Assembly: GCA_018066245.1 (NCBI GenBank)
Contig: JAGHRT010000049.1
Span: 1-32,410 of the forward strand
Origin: Candidatus Equimonas faecalis
GTDB taxonomy: Bacteria > Bacteroidota > Bacteroidia > Bacteroidales > Bacteroidaceae
Length of the DNA stretch: 32,410 nucleotides
Direction of reading: 5' to 3'
This document shows positions 7,387 to 15,657 of this stretch, in pieces (the first letter of the stretch is position 1; every line of letters begins with the position of its first letter). The position numbers were made by a program, and so were the translations under genes. A model generated the notes under the pieces. It did no database searches and was not told where the DNA came from. It saw only the letters and a program-made list of their open reading frames with translations.

Positions 7387-7524
7387 TGTTCTCGTCTTAC
7401 GAAACCGCCAAAACTTCCTGTGTGAGAACAAGTGATGATAGTTCACGCTTGCAAGGCGTGAATTGTTCGCACTTTCCACACAAAGGCGCTTGGCGGTGCC
7501 CGTAAGACGGAAATGCAAAGAACA
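7387..7524. other. Long rod-like inverted repeat, possible structured RNA or MITE
   Basis: Nested arms pair in register over 138 bases: TGTTCT 7387-7392 with 7519-7524; CGTCTTACG 7393-7401 with 7501-7509; ACCGCCAA 7404-7411 with 7490-7497; TGTGTG 7419-7424 with CACACA 7477-7482; GAACAA 7426-7431 with 7463-7468; TTCACGC 7442-7448 with 7456-7462. Small internal loops separate the helices. A T-run follows at 7533-7538. The rod shape recalls 6S-type RNA or a miniature inverted-repeat element; neither is proved. It lies in the 324-base gap between frdB and the AT-rich vWA-nuclease gene, which otherwise shows no gene. Confidence 0.6.
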
Positions 7525-7561
7525 GTTCCGCCTTTTTTATTATCCATCAATAACAATCATT

Positions 7562-9022
7562 ATGAAAAAAATCTTATTTTTATCTTTGTTTCTTTTGCAA
7601 ATCGCAATAGGTTATGCACAGAGTAACATTGTGCTTTTTGACGTTTCGGGTTCAATGGACGGCATCAACGGAGAGAAAATTCTGCCTAAAGCAAAAAGTC
7701 AACTTATCTCCTTTGTGAACTCCTTGGATTCAGCAGAAATTACCGTCATCCCTTTCACAGACAAAGTATTTGGCCAATATGAAGGCAAAGACTTTATTTC
7801 CAGTCCCATCATAAAACGGAGAGGGAATACAAACATTTTGAAGGCTTTGAACTATTTGCCAAAGGTTATAAACGATTCCGTCAAAAGTGTTTTTCTCCTA
7901 TCAGACGGACTTCAAACTACAGGTCAATCTGTTGAGCAACTTTCACAGTCGCTCAATGCAATTAAGAATGCAAACAAGAATAATTACTATTATTTTGTGG
8001 CATTGACAGAAAATATCAAAACCTCTCCACTCGCTGCAGTGTTTGACAGCGTCAATAATTTCATCCTTCTTGATAGTTTGTATATACCAACACCTAACGA
8101 GAAAGGAAGCACCTGTTCAGAAAGCCAAGTTACCAATATCCCAAGCAAGAAGTTTATTGGCAAGACTATAACAGAGAAAAGTAAATCTTTCAACTTTTAT
8201 TGGTGGTGGCTATTAATTGCATTGATTCTTATTTTACTTGTTATAAAGTCAAAGGGACTACTATCTTGGCTCTCTGTATCTAAGACGCTTCCTAACCTTA
8301 AAGAAATATCTGATTCAACGGAGGAAGTAGAAGAAGAAAAAGACCCATTCAAAAGTCTTAGAAAGGGCTCATACAAACCTTTAGCTGACGCTCCGAAAAC
8401 GACACAAACGAAGAACCCAGACGGTTCGATAACATATTCTGTGCCAGGCACTAATACAAGTATAACAAAACGACAAGATGGTACGTTCGTAGCAAAATCA
8501 GGCTGTAACAAAGGTGCAGAGATTTGGGCTCCTAATCACGCTTTGGATAGGCCTGAACCTAACGCCAAGTATGAAATACCTAATGACAAGATAGGCGCCA
8601 AGATAGATAGCGAAGGACGCACAAAATATGTTGAGCAAGAACTTAATGAAGATACTATCAACAAAGAAAGGCCCAATTTAGATGCACAAAGGCGAGAAGG
8701 TATAGGGCTAAAGCCTCATGATGGTCTGGACGCTAGCCACATTCTTGGAAAGCAAATGGGAGGCCCCAACGAAAATATCAACCTGATTCCTATGATAAGA
8801 GAACTCCAAGAACAAGGTTCAGATTGGGCTAATTATGAAAACAAAGAAGCCTCAATAACTCGTAATTTCCTTAAGGAGAACCCGGGTAAGAAATTAATAA
8901 GGACAAGAGAAATTGAATACTATCCAGGTACTAAATACCCCCAGAAAATAACTTGTCGCTTATTTGATCCTTCCACTGGAAAGGTTCTTCAAAATAGAGA
9001 CTTTGATTTTCCTAAGCCGTAG
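7562..9022 (+). CDS. Exported vWA domain - membrane helix - Endonuclease_NS_2-like nuclease fusion
   Basis: This 486-residue protein starts at the ATG at 7562, because a classic signal peptide (residues 1-20, ending IGYAQ) begins there; the frame is open for 33 more codons upstream, but those overlap the hairpin. Residues 22-175 form a von Willebrand A domain with MIDAS residues DVSGSM (27-32), T90 and D115. A hydrophobic helix at 213-228 follows, then an acidic linker. Residues about 280-486 resemble the DNA/RNA non-specific endonuclease type found at the end of polymorphic toxins: DASH with H393, GG at 400-401, N407, then a WANYEN segment (422-427). With a cleaved signal peptide and one helix the vWA would face the periplasm and the nuclease the cytoplasm. 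The gene is clearly more AT-rich than its neighbours, which suggests transfer. No immunity gene is recognisable next to it. Domain calls are good; function is inferred. Confidence 0.8.
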   Translation: MKKILFLSLFLLQIAIGYAQSNIVLFDVSGSMDGINGEKILPKAKSQLISFVNSLDSAEITVIPFTDKVFGQYEGKDFISSPIIKRRGNTNILKALNYLPKVINDSVKSVFLLSDGLQTTGQSVEQLSQSLNAIKNANKNNYYYFVALTENIKTSPLAAVFDSVNNFILLDSLYIPTPNEKGSTCSESQVTNIPSKKFIGKTITEKSKSFNFYWWWLLIALILILLVIKSKGLLSWLSVSKTLPNLKEISDSTEEVEEEKDPFKSLRKGSYKPLADAPKTTQTKNPDGSITYSVPGTNTSITKRQDGTFVAKSGCNKGAEIWAPNHALDRPEPNAKYEIPNDKIGAKIDSEGRTKYVEQELNEDTINKERPNLDAQRREGIGLKPHDGLDASHILGKQMGGPNENINLIPMIRELQEQGSDWANYENKEASITRNFLKENPGKKLIRTREIEYYPGTKYPQKITCRLFDPSTGKVLQNRDFDFPKP

Positions 9023-9109: not shown

Positions 9110-9427
9110 ATGCCCACTCCCTTCCAGCAGCGCGTCTATTCTGCCACCCGCCAGATACCGGCGGGCAAGGTAATGAGCTACGGCCAGTTGGCGCGAATCA
9201 TTGGCTGCGGCAGCGCACAAGCCGTCGGTCAGGCGCTGCGGCGCAATCCCTATGCTCCCGTCGTACCCTGCCACCGTGTAGTTTCTGCCGATGGCAGCCT
9301 CGGCGGTTTCATGGGTCAGCGTGGCGGAGAACAACTCCTGCGCAAACGCTTACTGCTGACATCAGAAGGTATCACCTTTGATGCCGAGGGCCGCGTTAAT
9401 CCACAGCATTTTGTCAAAACATCATAA
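9110..9427 (+). CDS. MGMT-family O6-alkylguanine-DNA alkyltransferase, short form
   Basis: This 105-residue protein matches the C-terminal catalytic domain of methylated-DNA-protein cysteine methyltransferases. The active-site motif PCHRV is at residues 53-57 with C54 intact, so it is not an alkyltransferase-like protein, in which a tryptophan replaces the cysteine. The helix-turn-helix part with YGQLARIIG and the following AQAVGQALRRNP segment, which carries the arginine-finger region, is present. The N-terminal domain of Ogt/Ada enzymes is absent, as in other short forms. It should repair O6-alkylguanine or recognise such lesions by moving the alkyl group to C54. It has its own promoter at 9060-9090 and sits between accessory genes. 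Confidence 0.88.
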   Translation: MPTPFQQRVYSATRQIPAGKVMSYGQLARIIGCGSAQAVGQALRRNPYAPVVPCHRVVSADGSLGGFMGQRGGEQLLRKRLLLTSEGITFDAEGRVNPQHFVKTS

Positions 9428-9754
9428 GGGTCTGTATTCTGTTTCCAAATCAGACATCCTTGCTGCTGGGTAAGCATATTCTATGACTTCACCGGCGAAC
9501 TTCATTATGACGTGCCAAAGCCACATAAAAACAGTTGGGCCTACATCAATTGGTTGCAGACAGACAAGGTATTGATTCTGCCAAAGTTTAATGCGCCCGA
9601 GGATGAACAGGCCTTGCGACAGGTATCAGCCTTCGTGCCCGAATACAAAGGACGAATTGAGATGGTAGATGCCACCGACCTCATAAGGTATGAGGGCTGC
9701 CTGAATTGTGCAAGCTGGGAGATAAGCCCGTTTATGAACGGAGAAGTTTATTAA
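9428..9754 (+). pseudogene. C-terminal remnant of an agmatine deiminase-like (PPAD family) gene
   Basis: An open frame from 9428 to 9754 encodes a stretch resembling the C-terminal part of agmatine deiminase / peptidylarginine deiminase family proteins. Segments such as WAYINWLQTDKVLILPKF and EGCLNCASWEI correspond to the family's final strands and its catalytic-cysteine region (usually GGxxHCxSW). There is no ATG; the only candidate start is a GTG at 9512 inside the homologous part. About two thirds of a normal protein of about 350 residues is missing, and the preceding alkyltransferase gene ends directly at the break. It is therefore read as a decayed fragment. The family assignment is from motif memory and moderately certain. 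Confidence 0.6.
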
Positions 9755-9841: not shown

Positions 9842-10543
9842 ATGAACGAACTGAAAACAGCGCTGAATGCATTTCAGACCCAATGGGAGAAGTCAGAACG
9901 GAGTGAGGAAAAGCTTGGAGAATTGTTTGAATCTGAAATTGCGAAGGAAGTCCTTTGCCGAGGATGCTTCGAAATTGACGGCAAGGATTATGTAATAGAG
10001 CCCGATGCCATAGAACTGTACTTTCACGAGGAAGTGCCTGAAGGCATCAAGGACCACATTATGTATCACACCAACGAGCAAGTGCCCGATTATTTAAAGA
10101 AGAGAGGTGTACGGGAGTATCCCTATTTTGAAATGGGAACATTCAATCTGCATCCATCCGGTGTGGATGTTACTTTTGAGAAAGAAAAGACTGAGCGTCC
10201 TTATCGAGCATCGTTTCTCATTCGCGAATACACATATCATCGGAAGGGCGAAAGAGGCACTCGGGATAAGTGTCCCACTCATCTTTTTGATGATTTGTTC
10301 CCTTATGGCATTAGTGCAGAAACACTTGCCAAGATACATTGGGTAAAGAGAGAACGGATGATACCCGAGGACAAGGTAAAGACCGACTACCGAGTAAATG
10401 TGGCAGAGTATGTTTATAAAAATGGTAAATTTGAGAAAAAGCCTGCTGGCAACTCAAAAAAAGATATAACTAAAAACGGAAAGTACATACAGTGTAAGCG
10501 TAAATGGCAGTTTAAGATAGAACAAGAGAGTAAATACTTATAA
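9842..10543 (+). CDS. Uncharacterised Bacteroidetes-type protein
   Basis: This 233-residue protein is not assigned to a named family. It has no signal peptide or membrane segment. Recognisable pieces are an N-terminal helical region, a segment IEPDAIELYFHEE, a central MGTFNLHPSGVDVTFE block, RASFLIREYTYH, and a lysine-rich C-terminus. From memory, similar proteins with HxSGxDxTFE and RAS-LIR blocks are widespread single genes in Bacteroidetes accessory regions, but their role is unknown to me. It has a strong promoter of its own (9789-9820) and no co-directional partner close downstream. The ATG at 9842 is chosen because the earlier TTG would overlap the promoter. Confidence 0.75.
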   Translation: MNELKTALNAFQTQWEKSERSEEKLGELFESEIAKEVLCRGCFEIDGKDYVIEPDAIELYFHEEVPEGIKDHIMYHTNEQVPDYLKKRGVREYPYFEMGTFNLHPSGVDVTFEKEKTERPYRASFLIREYTYHRKGERGTRDKCPTHLFDDLFPYGISAETLAKIHWVKRERMIPEDKVKTDYRVNVAEYVYKNGKFEKKPAGNSKKDITKNGKYIQCKRKWQFKIEQESKYL

Positions 10544-10597
10544 CGATATTCCATCGTGCCGTTGTATCTTTGCACCCCCAAGCAAACATACAACGGC

Positions 10598-10897
10598 TTA
10601 TTCATTCCTTGCCCTTGCAATGACATACTTTCGTTCCCGACCTTCAACCTCGCAAAGAAGATGGAAATTGCCTTTGTTAACTTGCTCCACACGGACACTC
10701 CTGAACGACTTTACATCAAACTCCTTGGCCAAGTCCGATGCAGACACCAACGTCGGACAGATATTTAACAGGTGAAGGGCTATGCGCTCAAATACATAAC
10801 GTGGACTTTCCGCTGCGAGAAGTTCCCGCAGAATGGGGTGTATGATGGGGCGATTGGAGCCAAGGCGTGATGTAATAAAATGGCCACCCCAGAGCAC
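10598..10897 (-). CDS. Doubtful small ORF, unknown function
   Basis: This frame of up to 99 residues has a reasonable amino-acid mix, with blocks such as PRYVFERIALHLLNIC and FHLLCEVEGRERKYVIAR, and no long low-complexity runs. Its only start is a GTG that lies in the loop of a terminator-like hairpin (10882-10908), and it contains no other methionine codon. It may be the tail of a lost gene rather than a working one. No family is recognised. Confidence 0.3.
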   Translation of the reverse strand: MLWGGHFITSRLGSNRPIIHPILRELLAAESPRYVFERIALHLLNICPTLVSASDLAKEFDVKSFRSVRVEQVNKGNFHLLCEVEGRERKYVIARARNE

Positions 10898-10980
10898 CTG
10901 AGGTGGCCTGCATACAGCCCCACGCCGTTGGAGATGTAGATGAGTAAGGCATGTTTATACCTTACTCGGGTGCAAAATTA
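10882..10980 (-). ncRNA. Candidate small RNA or leader on the minus strand
   Basis: Read on the minus strand, a -7 element TAATTTTG (10980-10973) is followed by a perfect 8-bp hairpin (10967-10942, GAGTAAGG/CCTTACTC). After a spacer of about 33 bases comes a stem of 10 pairs with one mismatch (10908-10882, GGCCACC arms, 5-base loop) followed by ATTTTATTA. Promoter, 5' hairpin and terminator-like 3' end would give an RNA of about 85-95 bases. No -33 box is seen. It could instead be a leader of the doubtful ORF downstream. Confidence 0.4.
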
Positions 10981-11033
10981 GAGTTTTTTTGAGGGAAAAT
11001 GCACTTTTTGGGGAAAAAATTTTAGCTTATGCC

Positions 11034-11063
11034 TTGGATTGGCACTTTACCACCCTACTTTTG
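11034..11063 (+). promoter_or_regulatory. Promoter of the membrane peptide - HIRAN - EVE/HNH operon
   Basis: -33 TTG at 11034-11036, a 19-base spacer, and -7 TACTTTTG at 11056-11063. A leader of about 110 bases follows, containing GC-rich palindromic patches before the ATG at 11181. Confidence 0.75.
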
Positions 11064-11180
11064 CACTCGCAAAGTCGAAAACGACCGCGCCCCGGCCTTC
11101 GCGCAACTATACTGCGCGGGCCGACAAACCGCTCTTTGCTTCGGACGAAAAAGCACTCGCAAACAAACAAAAATCACATT

Positions 11181-11294
11181 ATGCTTGTACTCATCAACCT
11201 TCTTGCACTCGGCCTGATGGCTGCCACAATAGCCATCCCCGCTACTATCATCTTTAATATCTATCGCGCTACGCACGAGGATCACTTCTGCTAG
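11181..11294 (+). CDS. Membrane microprotein, 37 residues
   Basis: A short gene starting at the ATG at 11181, after a typical A-rich leader. Residues 2-27 form one hydrophobic helix (leucine/alanine/isoleucine-rich), followed by a short charged tail with RATHEDHFC. It therefore looks like a single-pass inner-membrane peptide. The frame is open further upstream to 10989, but that part includes the promoter. It is the first gene of a tight cluster: the HIRAN gene starts 20 bases after its stop and the EVE-HNH gene follows. It may be a small regulator or effector of that operon, or a type I toxin-like peptide; nothing in the sequence decides. Confidence 0.55.
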   Translation: MLVLINLLALGLMAATIAIPATIIFNIYRATHEDHFC

Positions 11295-11314
11295 CCCTTA
11301 ACGTTTGCACAACT

Positions 11315-11679
11315 ATGGCTACAAAGAAATTTGAAACCAAACGCGTACACTTCGCATCGTTCTTTATCGCAGGCTTCAAATATTATGAAGGCCCCTTCGT
11401 GATGGACAAGCTCAAACTGGGCGACACCCTCCTACTCTACCCCGAGCCTACTAACAAGCACGACACCAACGCCATCATCGTGGCTGGAAGGACAAAGAGA
11501 CGAAAGAAGAGCACAAGCTCGGCTATGTGCCGGCTTCCGGGGACTTATGCAACGAAGAACTCATCCCTTTCATCGAGATGGACCGCATGGACATCTTCGA
11601 ACTCCGCATCGTGGGAATCTATCCCGACGCACAGCTCAACCGCCGTGTGGAAGTTAATATCTATCTTACTCACAAATAA
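11315..11679 (+). pseudogene. HIRAN domain protein interrupted by a frameshift
   Basis: Residues 1-56 read as the N-terminal half of a HIRAN domain (FASFFIAGFKYYEGP, then LLLYPEPTNKHDTNAIIV). The frame then becomes nonsense. Reading in the -1 frame from about 11482 restores the rest of the domain, beginning GWKDKETKEEHKLGYVP and ending at a TAA at 11677-11679. Restored length is about 121 residues. The break is at GTGGCTGG, which would be repaired by one extra G. No slippery heptamer is visible, so programmed frameshifting is unlikely. HIRAN domains occur alone or fused to helicases and nucleases and are thought to bind damaged or 3' DNA ends. A sequencing error is possible. Confidence 0.75.
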
Positions 11680-11691
11680 ACAACGTACATT

Positions 11692-12429
11692 ATGAGAACG
11701 TATATCCTTATGTGGAACCCCGCCATTTCCTCGGTGAAAATGGACGAGTTTGAGAACTACATTATTGACCCTACCCAGGAACTCAACTGGAGCGTATGGG
11801 ATTACGAAGACCTTGATTTCGAAGACCGTTTCTTCCTTGTGCGTGTCGGCGAAGGTAATACCGGCATCGTCATGTCCGGCACCTTCGTTAGCCTCCCCTG
11901 GCAAGGCGAAGATTGGAGCGGAAAAGGACGCGAAGTGTTCTATGCTGATTTAGATGCCGAGAGCATCTTCCACCCCGACCGAGAGCCCATCATCACCACC
12001 GCACAACTCCAAGAGGCCATTCCCGACTTCGATTGGACCGATGGACATTCTGGGCGCGTGCTCACCGATGAACAGGCCCAAAAACTTGAGGCGCTCTATA
12101 TGGACTTCATCCTGCAGCGTTATGCTGCCTACGGAGAGGTAGATGATTTCTACGACATTGAGACCCCTAATGCCTACATCTCCTCTAATGCCCTCTACCC
12201 CAACGCCCACCTACAGGAATACCTGCATCGCACCCGGGGAGAGTCTTGCGAACTCTGTGGCTACAACTACCAGGAGAAGTTCGGAGCCGACAACCCACAC
12301 CACAATGATTATATTCTCATCGGCAACGCTCTAGACGGACTTTCGCTGAAAGACTTCCACTGCCTCTGCCGCAGCTGCCGCGAAATGGAACGAGACTCCG
12401 CCATCACGGAAAAGCTAAGGCACAGTTGA
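11692..12429 (+). CDS. EVE-like domain plus degenerate HNH-like zinc finger protein
   Basis: This 245-residue protein starts 12 bases after the restored HIRAN stop. Residues 1-140 resemble the EVE (PUA-like) family: an N-terminal YILMWNP, W33, an EDRFFLVRVG block (44-53), GIVMSG (58-63), and an SGRVLTDE segment near 120-127. EVE/PUA-like domains of this kind read modified bases in modification-dependent nucleases. Residues 180-235 carry C186-x2-C189, H203-H204 and C226-x2-C229, the layout of an HNH finger, but the last histidine normally found as CxxCH is an arginine here (R230). It may therefore be a catalytically weak or dead HNH, or a diverged one. EVE-HNH fusions are known type IV-like restriction enzymes. 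The operon (membrane peptide, HIRAN, this gene) suggests a DNA-surveillance or phage-restriction role, by inference. Confidence 0.7.
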   Translation: MRTYILMWNPAISSVKMDEFENYIIDPTQELNWSVWDYEDLDFEDRFFLVRVGEGNTGIVMSGTFVSLPWQGEDWSGKGREVFYADLDAESIFHPDREPIITTAQLQEAIPDFDWTDGHSGRVLTDEQAQKLEALYMDFILQRYAAYGEVDDFYDIETPNAYISSNALYPNAHLQEYLHRTRGESCELCGYNYQEKFGADNPHHNDYILIGNALDGLSLKDFHCLCRSCREMERDSAITEKLRHS

Positions 12430-12555
12430 AACCCATTGAATTGCTAAAAAAGAAGGTTATAAATTAGGTCTTTGTATATATTTTTGGTCTTTACGCAATT
12501 TTTTGGCACTTCTATGCGCACAGGTGAATCCTTTTTATTATATTTGCACGCAGAT

Positions 12556-12583
12556 AAGTAAGTGGAGGTTCCCCAACTTACTT
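12556..12583 (+). promoter_or_regulatory. 5' hairpin downstream of TATATTTG element
   Basis: AAGTAAGT (12556-12563) pairs with ACTTACTT (12576-12583), and a short T-run follows. It begins about 10 bases after the -7 element at 12539-12546, so it would form the 5' end of any transcript. The same AGTAAG/CTTACT stem follows the minus-strand promoter at 10973-10980. Confidence 0.45.
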
Positions 12584-12678
12584 TTGACAAAGACCGCTGA
12601 CATACATTTGCATCACGCAAATACCACATACAATGCCTCCGTAGATAGATGAAACCTAACAAATAAGAATCTCAATCC

Positions 12679-12711
12679 GTGCTCAACATCATCAGCTAAC
12701 ATTTCTATCCT
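12679..12711 (+). pseudogene. Relic of a WYL-regulator gene start
   Basis: The segment GTGCTCAACATCATCAGC followed by TAACAT matches the start of the intact WYL gene at 14496 (ATGCTCAACATTATCAGC followed by CGACAT). Translated it reads VLNIIS-stop-H against MLNIISRH. It looks like the decayed 5' end of a WYL paralogue, left upstream of the nuclease gene. The match is short, so chance is not fully excluded. Confidence 0.5.
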
Positions 12712-12814
12712 CAAAGCAGAAATAAACCACATAGACAATAACCTCTACTAAAGGTTTACGAAGTTTGAAATCCAAATAGTTGAAGTCCAATTGTAATAAA
12801 CCTAGAAGTAAGAA

Positions 12815-12875
12815 TAACTACTCTATACACTATGCAAAATTAGCATTACACTAATGATAACTAGTCTATACACTA
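12815..12875 (+). promoter_or_regulatory. Pair of 18-base direct repeats, possible operator
   Basis: TAACTACTCTATACACTA at 12815-12832 and TAACTAGTCTATACACTA at 12858-12875 differ at one base. Their starts are 43 bases apart, about four helical turns. The second copy ends 36 bases before the nuclease start codon. They would suit binding by a dimeric regulator such as the WYL protein encoded downstream; this is inference. Confidence 0.55.
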
Positions 12876-12911
12876 AAAAACAGTTTACTTAACAAGGACG
12901 GATAATCGAAT

Positions 12912-14483
12912 ATGTCACGGAAAGTAACAACAGGAACTTTTATACAACGTGCCAGAGAAATTCATGGCTCGAAGTATGACTATTCAAAAGTGGTCTACAT
13001 AAAAGCCACTTCTCCCGTTGTTATTATTTGCCCCGAACATGGTGAATTTCTACAAACGCCCAACAAGCATTTAATCGGAAGAGGATGTCGAAGGTGCGCA
13101 GACCCAAACTATGGACTGACGACTCAAGAATTTATCGCTAAATGCAAAGATATTCACGGAAATAAATATAATTATTCCAAAACTGTCTATAAAAATTACA
13201 AACAGGCCGTCCAGATTATTTGTCCTGAACATGGAGAGTTTGCAATTTGCGCTTGTCAACATCTCTATGGACATGGCTGTCAACGATGTGGAAAAAGTGG
13301 GCGTTACACTACCGCAGAGTTCATTGTGAAACATAAAAGTATTCATGGAGACAAATACGATTATAGCAAGACAAACCTTGACAATCGCAAAGATGGTCTG
13401 ATTTGCGTTATATGTCCACAGCATGGTGAATACTACAAAAATACAACTTCACATTTTCACGAAGGATGTCCCAAATGTACTTCTCCACATCTCGGATTAA
13501 CTCAAGAGCAATTTCTAGAGATTGTTAAAAACGTTCATGGTGAAAAATACACTTACGAAAATACCTTATACAAAGGCATTTACGAAAAGATACATGTAAC
13601 TTGCAGGAGACATGGAGACATCATCGTTACACCAAACAACTTTATGCGAGGGCACGGCTGTAAGAAGTGCGCTGTTGAAGAACAGGCGAACCTTCGAAAA
13701 AAAAGAGCTGCATCAGATTTTGAATCAAAGGCCAGAGAAGTTCATGGCGAGAAGTATGATTACAGTAAGGTTAACTATCAGTCGGCAAGAACGCCAGTCT
13801 GTATAACCTGCCCTGAACACGGAGATTTTTATCAAGATCCCAACCACCATCTTTCCGGTTGTGGCTGTCCGAAATGCACACAAAGAAGCTGGGCTTATAC
13901 TACTGCCGAATTCATAAAACTCGCAAAAGACGAACACGGAGATAGATACGACTATTCAGAAACACAATATATTAACAACCATACAAATGTAAAGGTCATC
14001 TGCAAAGAGCACGGATCTTTTGAAATAAGTCCTTCATACCACATGAATGGAGGCAATTGCCCTGTGTGTACGGCCCTGAAAATTGAAAGTCGGCAAGAAT
14101 CTGAAATGCGGCATTTTTTGGAAAGACATTCTATACAATATGAAAGAGAAAAACAGTTTCCTTGGTTACGTCGTGGACGTGTAATGCCCCTTGATTTCTA
14201 TCTACCAGAATATAACATTGCAATAGAATGTCAAGGACTTCAACACTTTAAAAGTCATGTTTTTTTTGGAGGAACTAATGGTCTTAAAGATATTCAAGAT
14301 AGAGACAACCTCAAACGCAACCTTTGCAAAGAAAACGATGTTACTTTACTATATTATTCTGACCTTAAAATATCATATCCCTATGAGGTTTATGAAAACT
14401 TTGAAAGCTTATTAAAAAGAATACAGGGAACAAGTTCAACAATAAGAATAGCTCAACAGCTCTCTTTTGATTTTGAAAGTTAA
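12912..14483 (+). CDS. Six-module zinc-ribbon-like repeat protein with C-terminal Vsr/DUF559-like nuclease
   Basis: This 523-residue protein has six tandem modules of about 58 residues: 8-65, 70-128, 133-192, 196-255, 267-324 and 330-388. Each has a [I/V/E]HG-x-[K/R]Y-x-Y element and an ordered C-x2-H then C-x2-C set: C40/H43/C59/C62, C104/H107/C123/C126, C168/H171/C186/C189, C231/H234/C250/C253, C300/H303/C319/C322, C364/H367/C383/C386. This matches the DUF723-type repeat. Residues 396-505 form a PD-(D/E)XK-type domain with E398, LDFYLPEYNIAIECQG (D428, E439, Q441) and H445, as in very-short-patch-repair/DUF559 nucleases. The repeats should each bind zinc and probably DNA. It is AT-rich compared with the core. 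The WYL gene starts 12 bases downstream. Defence, homing or self-transfer are all possible; the role is unproved. Confidence 0.85.
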   Translation: MSRKVTTGTFIQRAREIHGSKYDYSKVVYIKATSPVVIICPEHGEFLQTPNKHLIGRGCRRCADPNYGLTTQEFIAKCKDIHGNKYNYSKTVYKNYKQAVQIICPEHGEFAICACQHLYGHGCQRCGKSGRYTTAEFIVKHKSIHGDKYDYSKTNLDNRKDGLICVICPQHGEYYKNTTSHFHEGCPKCTSPHLGLTQEQFLEIVKNVHGEKYTYENTLYKGIYEKIHVTCRRHGDIIVTPNNFMRGHGCKKCAVEEQANLRKKRAASDFESKAREVHGEKYDYSKVNYQSARTPVCITCPEHGDFYQDPNHHLSGCGCPKCTQRSWAYTTAEFIKLAKDEHGDRYDYSETQYINNHTNVKVICKEHGSFEISPSYHMNGGNCPVCTALKIESRQESEMRHFLERHSIQYEREKQFPWLRRGRVMPLDFYLPEYNIAIECQGLQHFKSHVFFGGTNGLKDIQDRDNLKRNLCKENDVTLLYYSDLKISYPYEVYENFESLLKRIQGTSSTIRIAQQLSFDFES

Positions 14484-14495
14484 GCCGCATTTAAT

Positions 14496-15395
14496 ATGCT
14501 CAACATTATCAGCCGACATATCTGGCTCATCGACCTCATAGCCAACCGGCAAGGAATCACCTTCCCCGAAATTAACGAGGAATGGCAACGCAGCTCCGTG
14601 AATCCCACTGGAGATTCGCTGCCGGTACGCACTTTCTGCAACTGGAAGAAGGACATCCTCGACGAGTTCGGCATTAAACTTCTGTGCAACCGCCGCACAA
14701 ACGGCTATTCCATTGACCGCATTGACGACATCAAAGACGGCAGCATTCGCGAATGGATGCTGAATGCCTTCACCGTCAGCAACCTCCTGAGCGAGCGCGA
14801 TGCTCTGGAGGGTCGCATCCTGTTGGAGAACGTACCGAGTGGTCAGGTGTGCCTGAAGCATTTCGTGGCTGCCATGAAGGGTAACAGGCGCGTGCGCTTC
14901 CAGTATAGCAAGTTCGTCTCTGGCGACACGCAGGAGGTCATTCTTGAACCATACTGCGTGAAGCTCTATGAACGGCGCTGGTATGTGGTGGGACGCAATG
15001 TGGAAAAGGATTCTCTCCGAACCTACGCCCTTGATCGCATGTCAGGGGTTGATATGCTGGACGACAGTTACAAAGTGCCAAAATCCTTTAATGCGGAGGA
15101 ATACTACGCCGACACCTTCGGCGTCATACACGATGATAGTATCAAACCCGAACTTATTCGCCTGCGTGTCAAAAAGGCCCAACGCGACTATTTCCGCACT
15201 CTCCCACTCCACCCCTCACAAAAAGAAGTGCTCACAGAAGACGAATACTCTGAGTTCACGGTTTTCCTTCGCCCGACCTTCGACTTCATCCAGCAAGTGC
15301 TCGCCCAACGTGAGTTTACACAAGTTCTAGAGCCGCTGGAATTACGAGAGAAGATTAAGTATATTCTAAATGATATGCTCAAACTGTACACATAA
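14496..15395 (+). CDS. WYL domain transcriptional regulator
   Basis: This 299-residue protein has an N-terminal winged-helix-like region (about 1-75), a WYL domain (about 130-190) with RRVRFQYSKF, EPYCVKLYERRWYVVGRN (W162-Y163-V164 in place of WYL) and RTYALDRM, and a C-terminal extension (about 215-299). WYL proteins are ligand-sensing regulators, often repressors of defence systems, that bind nucleotides or nucleic acids. It begins 12 bases after the nuclease gene and is probably co-transcribed, so it may control that gene through the direct repeats at 12815-12875. Its base composition is closer to the core genes than that of the nuclease. A decayed copy of its first codons lies at 12679. 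A bidirectional terminator follows at 15455-15482. Confidence 0.88.
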   Translation: MLNIISRHIWLIDLIANRQGITFPEINEEWQRSSVNPTGDSLPVRTFCNWKKDILDEFGIKLLCNRRTNGYSIDRIDDIKDGSIREWMLNAFTVSNLLSERDALEGRILLENVPSGQVCLKHFVAAMKGNRRVRFQYSKFVSGDTQEVILEPYCVKLYERRWYVVGRNVEKDSLRTYALDRMSGVDMLDDSYKVPKSFNAEEYYADTFGVIHDDSIKPELIRLRVKKAQRDYFRTLPLHPSQKEVLTEDEYSEFTVFLRPTFDFIQQVLAQREFTQVLEPLELREKIKYILNDMLKLYT

Positions 15396-15454
15396 CTACA
15401 TTTCCTCTGAACCCAAATTCAACTCTTTTTTAACGGGTTACTACAAAAACAAAA

Positions 15455-15482
15455 AAATCTCCAGAGTTGTCTCTGGAGATTT
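15455..15482. terminator. Bidirectional terminator
   Basis: AAATCTCCAGAG (15455-15466) pairs perfectly with CTCTGGAGATTT (15471-15482) around a TTGT loop. A-run on the left and T-run on the right let it work for the WYL gene (plus) and for the two tRNA genes (minus). Confidence 0.85.
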
Positions 15483-15489
15483 TAAGTTG

Positions 15490-15561
15490 TAGCGCCTACG
15501 GGACTCGAACCCGTGTACCCGGCGTGAGAGGCCGGTATCCTAACCACTAGATGAAAGCGCC
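15490..15561 (-). tRNA. tRNA-Glu (anticodon CTC)
   Basis: On the minus strand 72 bases fold as a cloverleaf. The acceptor arms GGCGCTT and AGGCGCT pair with G-U ends; the anticodon stem CCGGC/GCCGG encloses the loop CTCTCAC with anticodon CTC; and the T-arm holds GGGTTCGAGTCCC. CCA is not encoded. It is followed on the minus strand by the terminator at 15455-15482. Confidence 0.92.
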
Positions 15562-15569
15562 GTGGAGAG

Positions 15570-15657
15570 CGGAAGGAGGGGGATTCGAACCCCCGGTACC
15601 CTAATCGAGTACGTCAGTTTAGCAAACTGGTGGTTTCAGCCACTCACCCATCCTTCC
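15570..15657 (-). tRNA. tRNA-Ser (anticodon GCT)
   Basis: On the minus strand 88 bases fold with acceptor GGAAGGA/TCCTTCC, an anticodon loop containing GCT between CAGTT and AACTG, and a long variable arm typical of serine tRNAs. CCA is not encoded. It lies 8 bases upstream of tRNA-Glu on the same strand, so the two are probably co-transcribed. Confidence 0.92.

Follow-up and report, generated by a model that had tools for sequence, protein, structure and literature searches.

The 32,410-nucleotide (nt) stretch of Candidatus Equimonas faecalis analyzed here (contig JAGHRT010000049.1 of assembly GCA_018066245.1; the window) contains, at positions 12912–14483, what is probably a free-standing homing endonuclease gene of the CapR/DUF723-array plus EDxHD/Vsr type, located in a variable chromosomal site beside a tRNA-Glu gene. 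This identification is based on the anatomy of the encoded protein, its catalytic positions and predicted fold, a distribution that is rich in phages and apparently crosses phyla, sporadic occurrence, and the lack of a recurrent WYL partner. In the proposed mechanism, the array of six zinc modules probably extends along a long stretch of target DNA and positions the C-terminal Vsr-fold nuclease; the nuclease would cut an allele lacking the gene, and repair would then copy the gene in. Because the protein belongs to this family, we infer that its modules bind zinc and read DNA, that the protein cleaves DNA, and that the gene homes. The gene and its parts, with residue numbers in amino acids (aa), are as follows.

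12912–14483, + strand: homing-endonuclease-like gene, six DUF723/CapR-like zinc modules plus EDxHD/Vsr-type nuclease, 523 aa
12933–13100, + strand: module 1, aa 8–63; CxxH at 40–43, CxxC at 59–62
13125–13292, + strand: module 2, aa 72–127
13317–13481, + strand: module 3, aa 136–190
13506–13673, + strand: module 4, aa 199–254; followed in the structure model by a long helix (251–278)
13713–13880, + strand: module 5, aa 268–323
13905–14072, + strand: module 6, aa 332–387
14082–14435, + strand: Vsr/EDxHD-fold nuclease domain, aa 391–508; E396, D428, E439, H445, D465 and K468 conserved
14457–14474, + strand: C-terminal QLSFDF, aa 516–521, resembling a beta-clamp motif but missing the published consensus at one position; low-confidence tail in the model

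A first-pass annotation of this DNA had described six tandem CxxH...CxxC modules of about 58 residues followed by a Vsr-like nuclease core. The six modules are present in the open reading frame (ORF), although their period is 63–69 aa and not the length first given. The suggested relationship to PF05265 (DUF723) was borne out, with the protein scoring 28.8 bits against a cut-off of 20.9. Modules of a putative DNA-binding type are joined to a nuclease, six modules first and the nuclease after them, and the fusion of a modular zinc-type array to a nuclease is confirmed as real anatomy.

The nuclease core has the Vsr fold, and all conserved catalytic positions are present. Conservation in 100 unique rows was 99% for E396, 100% for D428 and E439, 96% for H445, 94% for D465 and 97% for K468, residues which we take to be the letters of the EDxHD-type catalytic motif. 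The predicted domain is structurally closest to Vsr and the EDxHD homing endonuclease I-Bth0305I. Vsr of E. coli is a mismatch-repair nicking enzyme; it is 18% identical (1cw0, 1vsr), and its chain is too short for such a module array. The structure of I-Bth0305I (PDB 3r3p) holds the catalytic domain only, and the comparison covers that domain. The best PHROG families for the window protein are a phage 'endonuclease' (E = 1e-101) and an 'HNH endonuclease' (2e-95).

Relatives were found in 1,081 of 50,697 phage records, at least 80% of the query being covered in 102, and some of these are labelled homing or Hef-like endonucleases; among the matches listed, labels include hypothetical protein, homing endonuclease and HNH endonuclease. 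Plasmid records with a match numbered 54 of 72,556, and a relative was encoded by 574 of the 577 IMG/VR stretches that matched the search pattern. Within the window's bacterial family a module protein (E ≤ 1e-20) occurs in 10 of 399 genomes, its own counted, and near-full-length matches were seen in that genome and in G150, G038 and G176. The protein family is common in phages and sporadic in bacteria. A Vsr-type tail follows the modules in 107 of 146 non-redundant module ORFs, another tail in 27, and fewer than 60 residues remain in 12. Module number does vary, from 1 to 8 among the 107 Vsr-type proteins (contig-end fragments included).

This architecture is already in print. PMC12350094 describes phage homing endonucleases encoded in introns, in which 'three to five ~60aa domains' with relationships to CapR, DUF4379 and DUF723 precede a domain related to EDxHD/Vsr; it notes thousands of UniProt relatives and places the architecture as an outgroup of the EDxHD/Vsr homing endonucleases. 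The window protein resembles these enzymes in its tandem modules of about 60 aa and its C-terminal nuclease, but it has six modules, is encoded on the chromosome beside a WYL gene, and ends in a clamp-motif-like tail. By its sequence, it is a new six-module chromosomal member of this described outgroup. The same kind of repeated zinc modules (CapR, DUF723 or related) is found on T5orf172/GIY-YIG homing endonucleases, whose T5orf172 nuclease domain is unlike that of the window protein; in PMC10448857, repeated DUF723/CapR modules are proposed to allow targets to be diversified or changed. No Rfam intron match was found in the window or in the loci of 16 viral and 12 bacterial relatives. Homing endonucleases usually sit in an intron or intein; free-standing ones exist, and location does not define them.

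The first-pass annotation had also suggested that the modules may read DNA, and had asked whether key inter-cysteine residues differ between modules. Non-ligand residues do vary: across 845 unique modules the four ligand columns hardly change (C, H, C and C in 840, 822, 837 and 834 modules, respectively), while eight columns (24, 25, 39, 41, 43, 44, 47 and 49) reach an entropy of at least 3 bits. Most of these hypervariable columns alternate with conserved F, Q, P, H, L and G. This pattern fits specificity positions on a fixed scaffold; however, surface positions vary for many reasons, which limits such an interpretation, and no code is derivable. Modules 1–5 of the window protein match modules 1–5 of its relative at locus L004 in order, with module 6 narrowly preferring module 5, whereas order is lost against five other homologues. 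Since order is kept in the one comparison and lost in the others, the arrays appear to be reassembled on longer time scales.

The modules are also found in other settings. At L014 (5944–9963), L017 (5992–9684) and L155 (4007–7540), from a Bacteroidia metagenome-assembled genome (MAG), a Leptospirales MAG and a viral contig, proteins of about 1,180–1,340 aa join five to seven of the same modules to a DarB/SNF2-like helicase and Methyltransf_8. If the array reads DNA, its coupling to a helicase-methyltransferase would make a machine of another kind. The window's own genome encodes a second module protein (G000:C52 44514–45134; L120 5198–7135) in which three modules precede a tail of about 440 aa; this tail gave no Pfam match at E ≤ 0.01 and is GIY-YIG-like by eye only. 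At four loci a stop codon ends one module ORF shortly before the next begins (L009 7372 TAG, L186 4880 TAA, L194 4196 TAA and L170 4979 TGA); the two L009 ORFs separated in this way hold 10 modules and 1 module.

The nuclease gene had been noted as AT-rich and possibly transferred, and both base composition and relatives agree with this. GC content at third codon positions is 0.31 in the nuclease gene, 0.64 in the WYL gene, and 0.78–0.80 in core genes. The nearest relatives, at L004 and L005 in Prevotellaceae MAGs, are 57% identical and occupy another site, flanked by an SGNH-like hydrolase ORF and a GNAT-like ORF, both identified by eye. A copy from a Treponema MAG (L007) is 67% identical over 511 residues to the copy in G176, a genome of the window's family (L048 = L122), and 63% identical to one from a Clostridia MAG (L006). 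These three copies form one clade (SH-aLRT support 98) in a tree of 96 of the 169 tails that rests on few columns and is weakly resolved, with 47 of 93 forks open. Taken together, the identities and the shared clade indicate apparent transfer between phyla, as a mobile gene would show. Among 20 hand-chosen neighbour ORFs at relatives' loci, five are of mobile type (integrases at L019 and L298, a resolvase and IS605 OrfB at L022, and KilA-N at L122); the rest are mostly ordinary genes or belong to no family. At L019 (4657–7570) the module nuclease is flanked by a phage integrase gene and a tRNA gene.

The surroundings of the nuclease gene in the window are as follows.

12430–12911, no strand: AT-rich leader upstream of the nuclease gene, GC 0.34
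14496–15395, + strand: WYL/WCX-domain regulator gene, judged a neighbour rather than a partner
15489–15561, - strand: tRNA-Glu(CTC); similarity to congeners starts 2 nt outside its 3’ end
15569–15657, - strand: tRNA-Ser(GCT)

The site was compared with that of two congeners, G365 and G413, out of 58 genomes of the genus. In both, similarity to the window starts at 15487, just outside the tRNA-Glu gene, so the nuclease and WYL genes lie in a variable site. In the case of G365, counterparts of window positions 10533–10602 (90% over 70 nt) and 9371–9496 (94% over 126 nt) are found 0.8–1.1 kb past the tRNA. Positions 10603–15486 have no counterpart in the G365 contig, and the segment with the two genes is therefore absent at that place there. 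An empty allele of the exact site was not found in G365 or G413, both of which differ beyond the tRNA.

A site of this kind could also mean that the nuclease travels as cargo on an integrative element or satellite linked to a tRNA and acts against rival elements, as chimeric phage nucleases are reported to do against satellites, and not for its own homing. The abutment on the tRNA-Glu 3’ end, the difference of two congeners immediately outside it, the phage integrases near the relatives at L019 and L298, and the tRNA at L019 are consistent with this, and PMC10448857 reports that homing-type nucleases take part in phage-satellite conflict. However, the seven scanned ORFs of the island include no integrase, and a search of the window allowing up to three mismatches did not turn up the tRNA-Glu end a second time. 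We regard a cargo role as improbable and retain the homing endonuclease interpretation.

The WYL gene had been proposed as the partner of the nuclease gene in phage defence. It does start 12 nt downstream on the same strand, and co-transcription of the two is possible. The pairing does not recur: WYL was found at 0 of 139 other module-gene loci, and a module gene at 0 of 29 WYL loci. The WYL profile was built from the window WYL protein and 29 relatives from the window's family, and divergent WYL proteins of other phyla may escape it; the module-gene loci, some overlapping or duplicate, had median flanks of about 3.9 kb and the WYL loci flanks of about 1.5 kb. Of 142 module-gene loci in all, WYL was detected in three, each of them an overlapping copy of the window, and the loci of the nearest nuclease relatives (L004 and L005) have no WYL gene. 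WYL relatives (E ≤ 1e-20) are present in 201 of 399 genomes of the window's family, the best being 42% identical. Because WYL is not recurrent and the two genes are unlike in base composition, they are best seen as chance neighbours.

These results bear on whether the two genes form a defence system in which a modular, sequence-specific nuclease under the control of the WYL regulator cuts the DNA of phages or plasmids. In its favor are the close spacing on one strand, a match of the WYL protein to PADLOC WYL models (E = 1e-27), and the upstream presence of a VWA-nuclease gene, along with a HIRAN ORF and further genes whose composition is unusual. However, neither gene predicts the other across loci, the nearest relatives lack WYL, and compositions differ. 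Positive evidence for a defence role of the nuclease was not obtained, the best PADLOC matches (E = 0.006 and 0.009) being weak and confined to the nuclease part. A two-gene defence system is, in our view, very unlikely. The striking layout of a modular zinc nuclease with a WYL regulator is instead indicated to be a mobile nuclease next to an unrelated regulator, which guards against miscounting it as a new defence system.

Several other features were observed in the window. An AT-rich gene at 7463–9022 encodes a von Willebrand A-like region (below cut-off) and a DNA/RNA non-specific endonuclease domain. The HIRAN-domain ORF at 11315–11695 seems to be a broken gene or an assembly error: the domain match ends half-way and seems to resume in another frame. 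A 245-aa ORF at 11692–12429 matched nothing in four libraries; it carries two CxxC pairs close to its end and looks HNH-like by eye. An Acido-Lenti-1 RNA match above the family cut-off lies at 191–236 on the - strand.

The C-terminal tail of the homing nuclease resembles a known peptide. In PMC13254535, the beta-clamp-binding consensus is given as Q-phi-x-[L/M](-x)-[F/L]. Past an unalignable linker, relatives end in QLELDF (L004, L005 and L048), QLELPF (L007) and QLSLDL (L291). Within the last 25 residues of Vsr-type tails, these 5 of 25 bacterial proteins match the consensus, compared to 0 of 146 viral ones, where shuffling predicts 0.14 and 0.38, respectively (Fisher p = 5e-5, uncorrected for post-hoc choice and for the near-identity of L004 and L005). 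The motif was spotted by eye before it was counted, and the 'bacterial' tails are those from genome collections, some of which may be prophage. On the tree the trait requires at least three changes of state when the window is counted as a carrier. The hexamer of the window protein, QLSFDF, is not an exact match, having F at position 4 where the consensus has L or M.

These observations allow a tentative form of the homing interpretation, not an alternative to it, in which the tail docks on the bacterial replication clamp, so that cuts would be made in DNA that has just been replicated and for which a repair template is available. The occurrence of the terminal Q-L-x-L-x-F/L hexamer in some bacterial but no viral Vsr-type tails, its repeated changes on the tree and the low confidence of the tail in the structure model are consistent with this. 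Insertion-sequence transposases offer a precedent: these are likewise mobile-element enzymes with a terminal Q-L-x-L-type motif, and according to PMC4549789 they use C-terminal beta-clamp motifs. They differ in being transposases rather than homing nucleases and in that their clamp binding was measured, whereas here the motif is known from sequence. No clamp-binding homing endonuclease was reported in the titles and abstract openings of the open-licence literature searched. Against a clamp tether, the motif is absent from other bacterial relatives (e.g., L006, L015 and L018), and QLSLSF occurs close to the end of L157, a viral protein that is not of the Vsr class. It is conceivable, though doubtful, that some family members in bacterial genomes gained a clamp-binding peptide at three separate places on the weakly resolved tree, delivering a modular homing nuclease to freshly replicated DNA. 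The window's tail might then be a degenerate or variant clamp motif, which we suggest with low confidence.

Some results weigh against the homing endonuclease identification or its clamp-tethered form. Foldseek returned no strong E-value for the structural match, the metagenome bins behind the apparent cross-phylum transfer may contain stray contigs, and the host DnaE has no exact match to a similar clamp pattern.

The family to which this gene belongs is large, natural and modular, and a binding code for its modules, if one exists, would be useful. The clamp-motif tail is a lead rather than a finding and may be the one possibly new, unexpected feature. If true, homing endonucleases would have a mode of action new to them, one reached convergently with insertion-sequence transposases. 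The motif offers a concrete way to ask whether homing nucleases attach themselves to the replication clamp as many transposases do.
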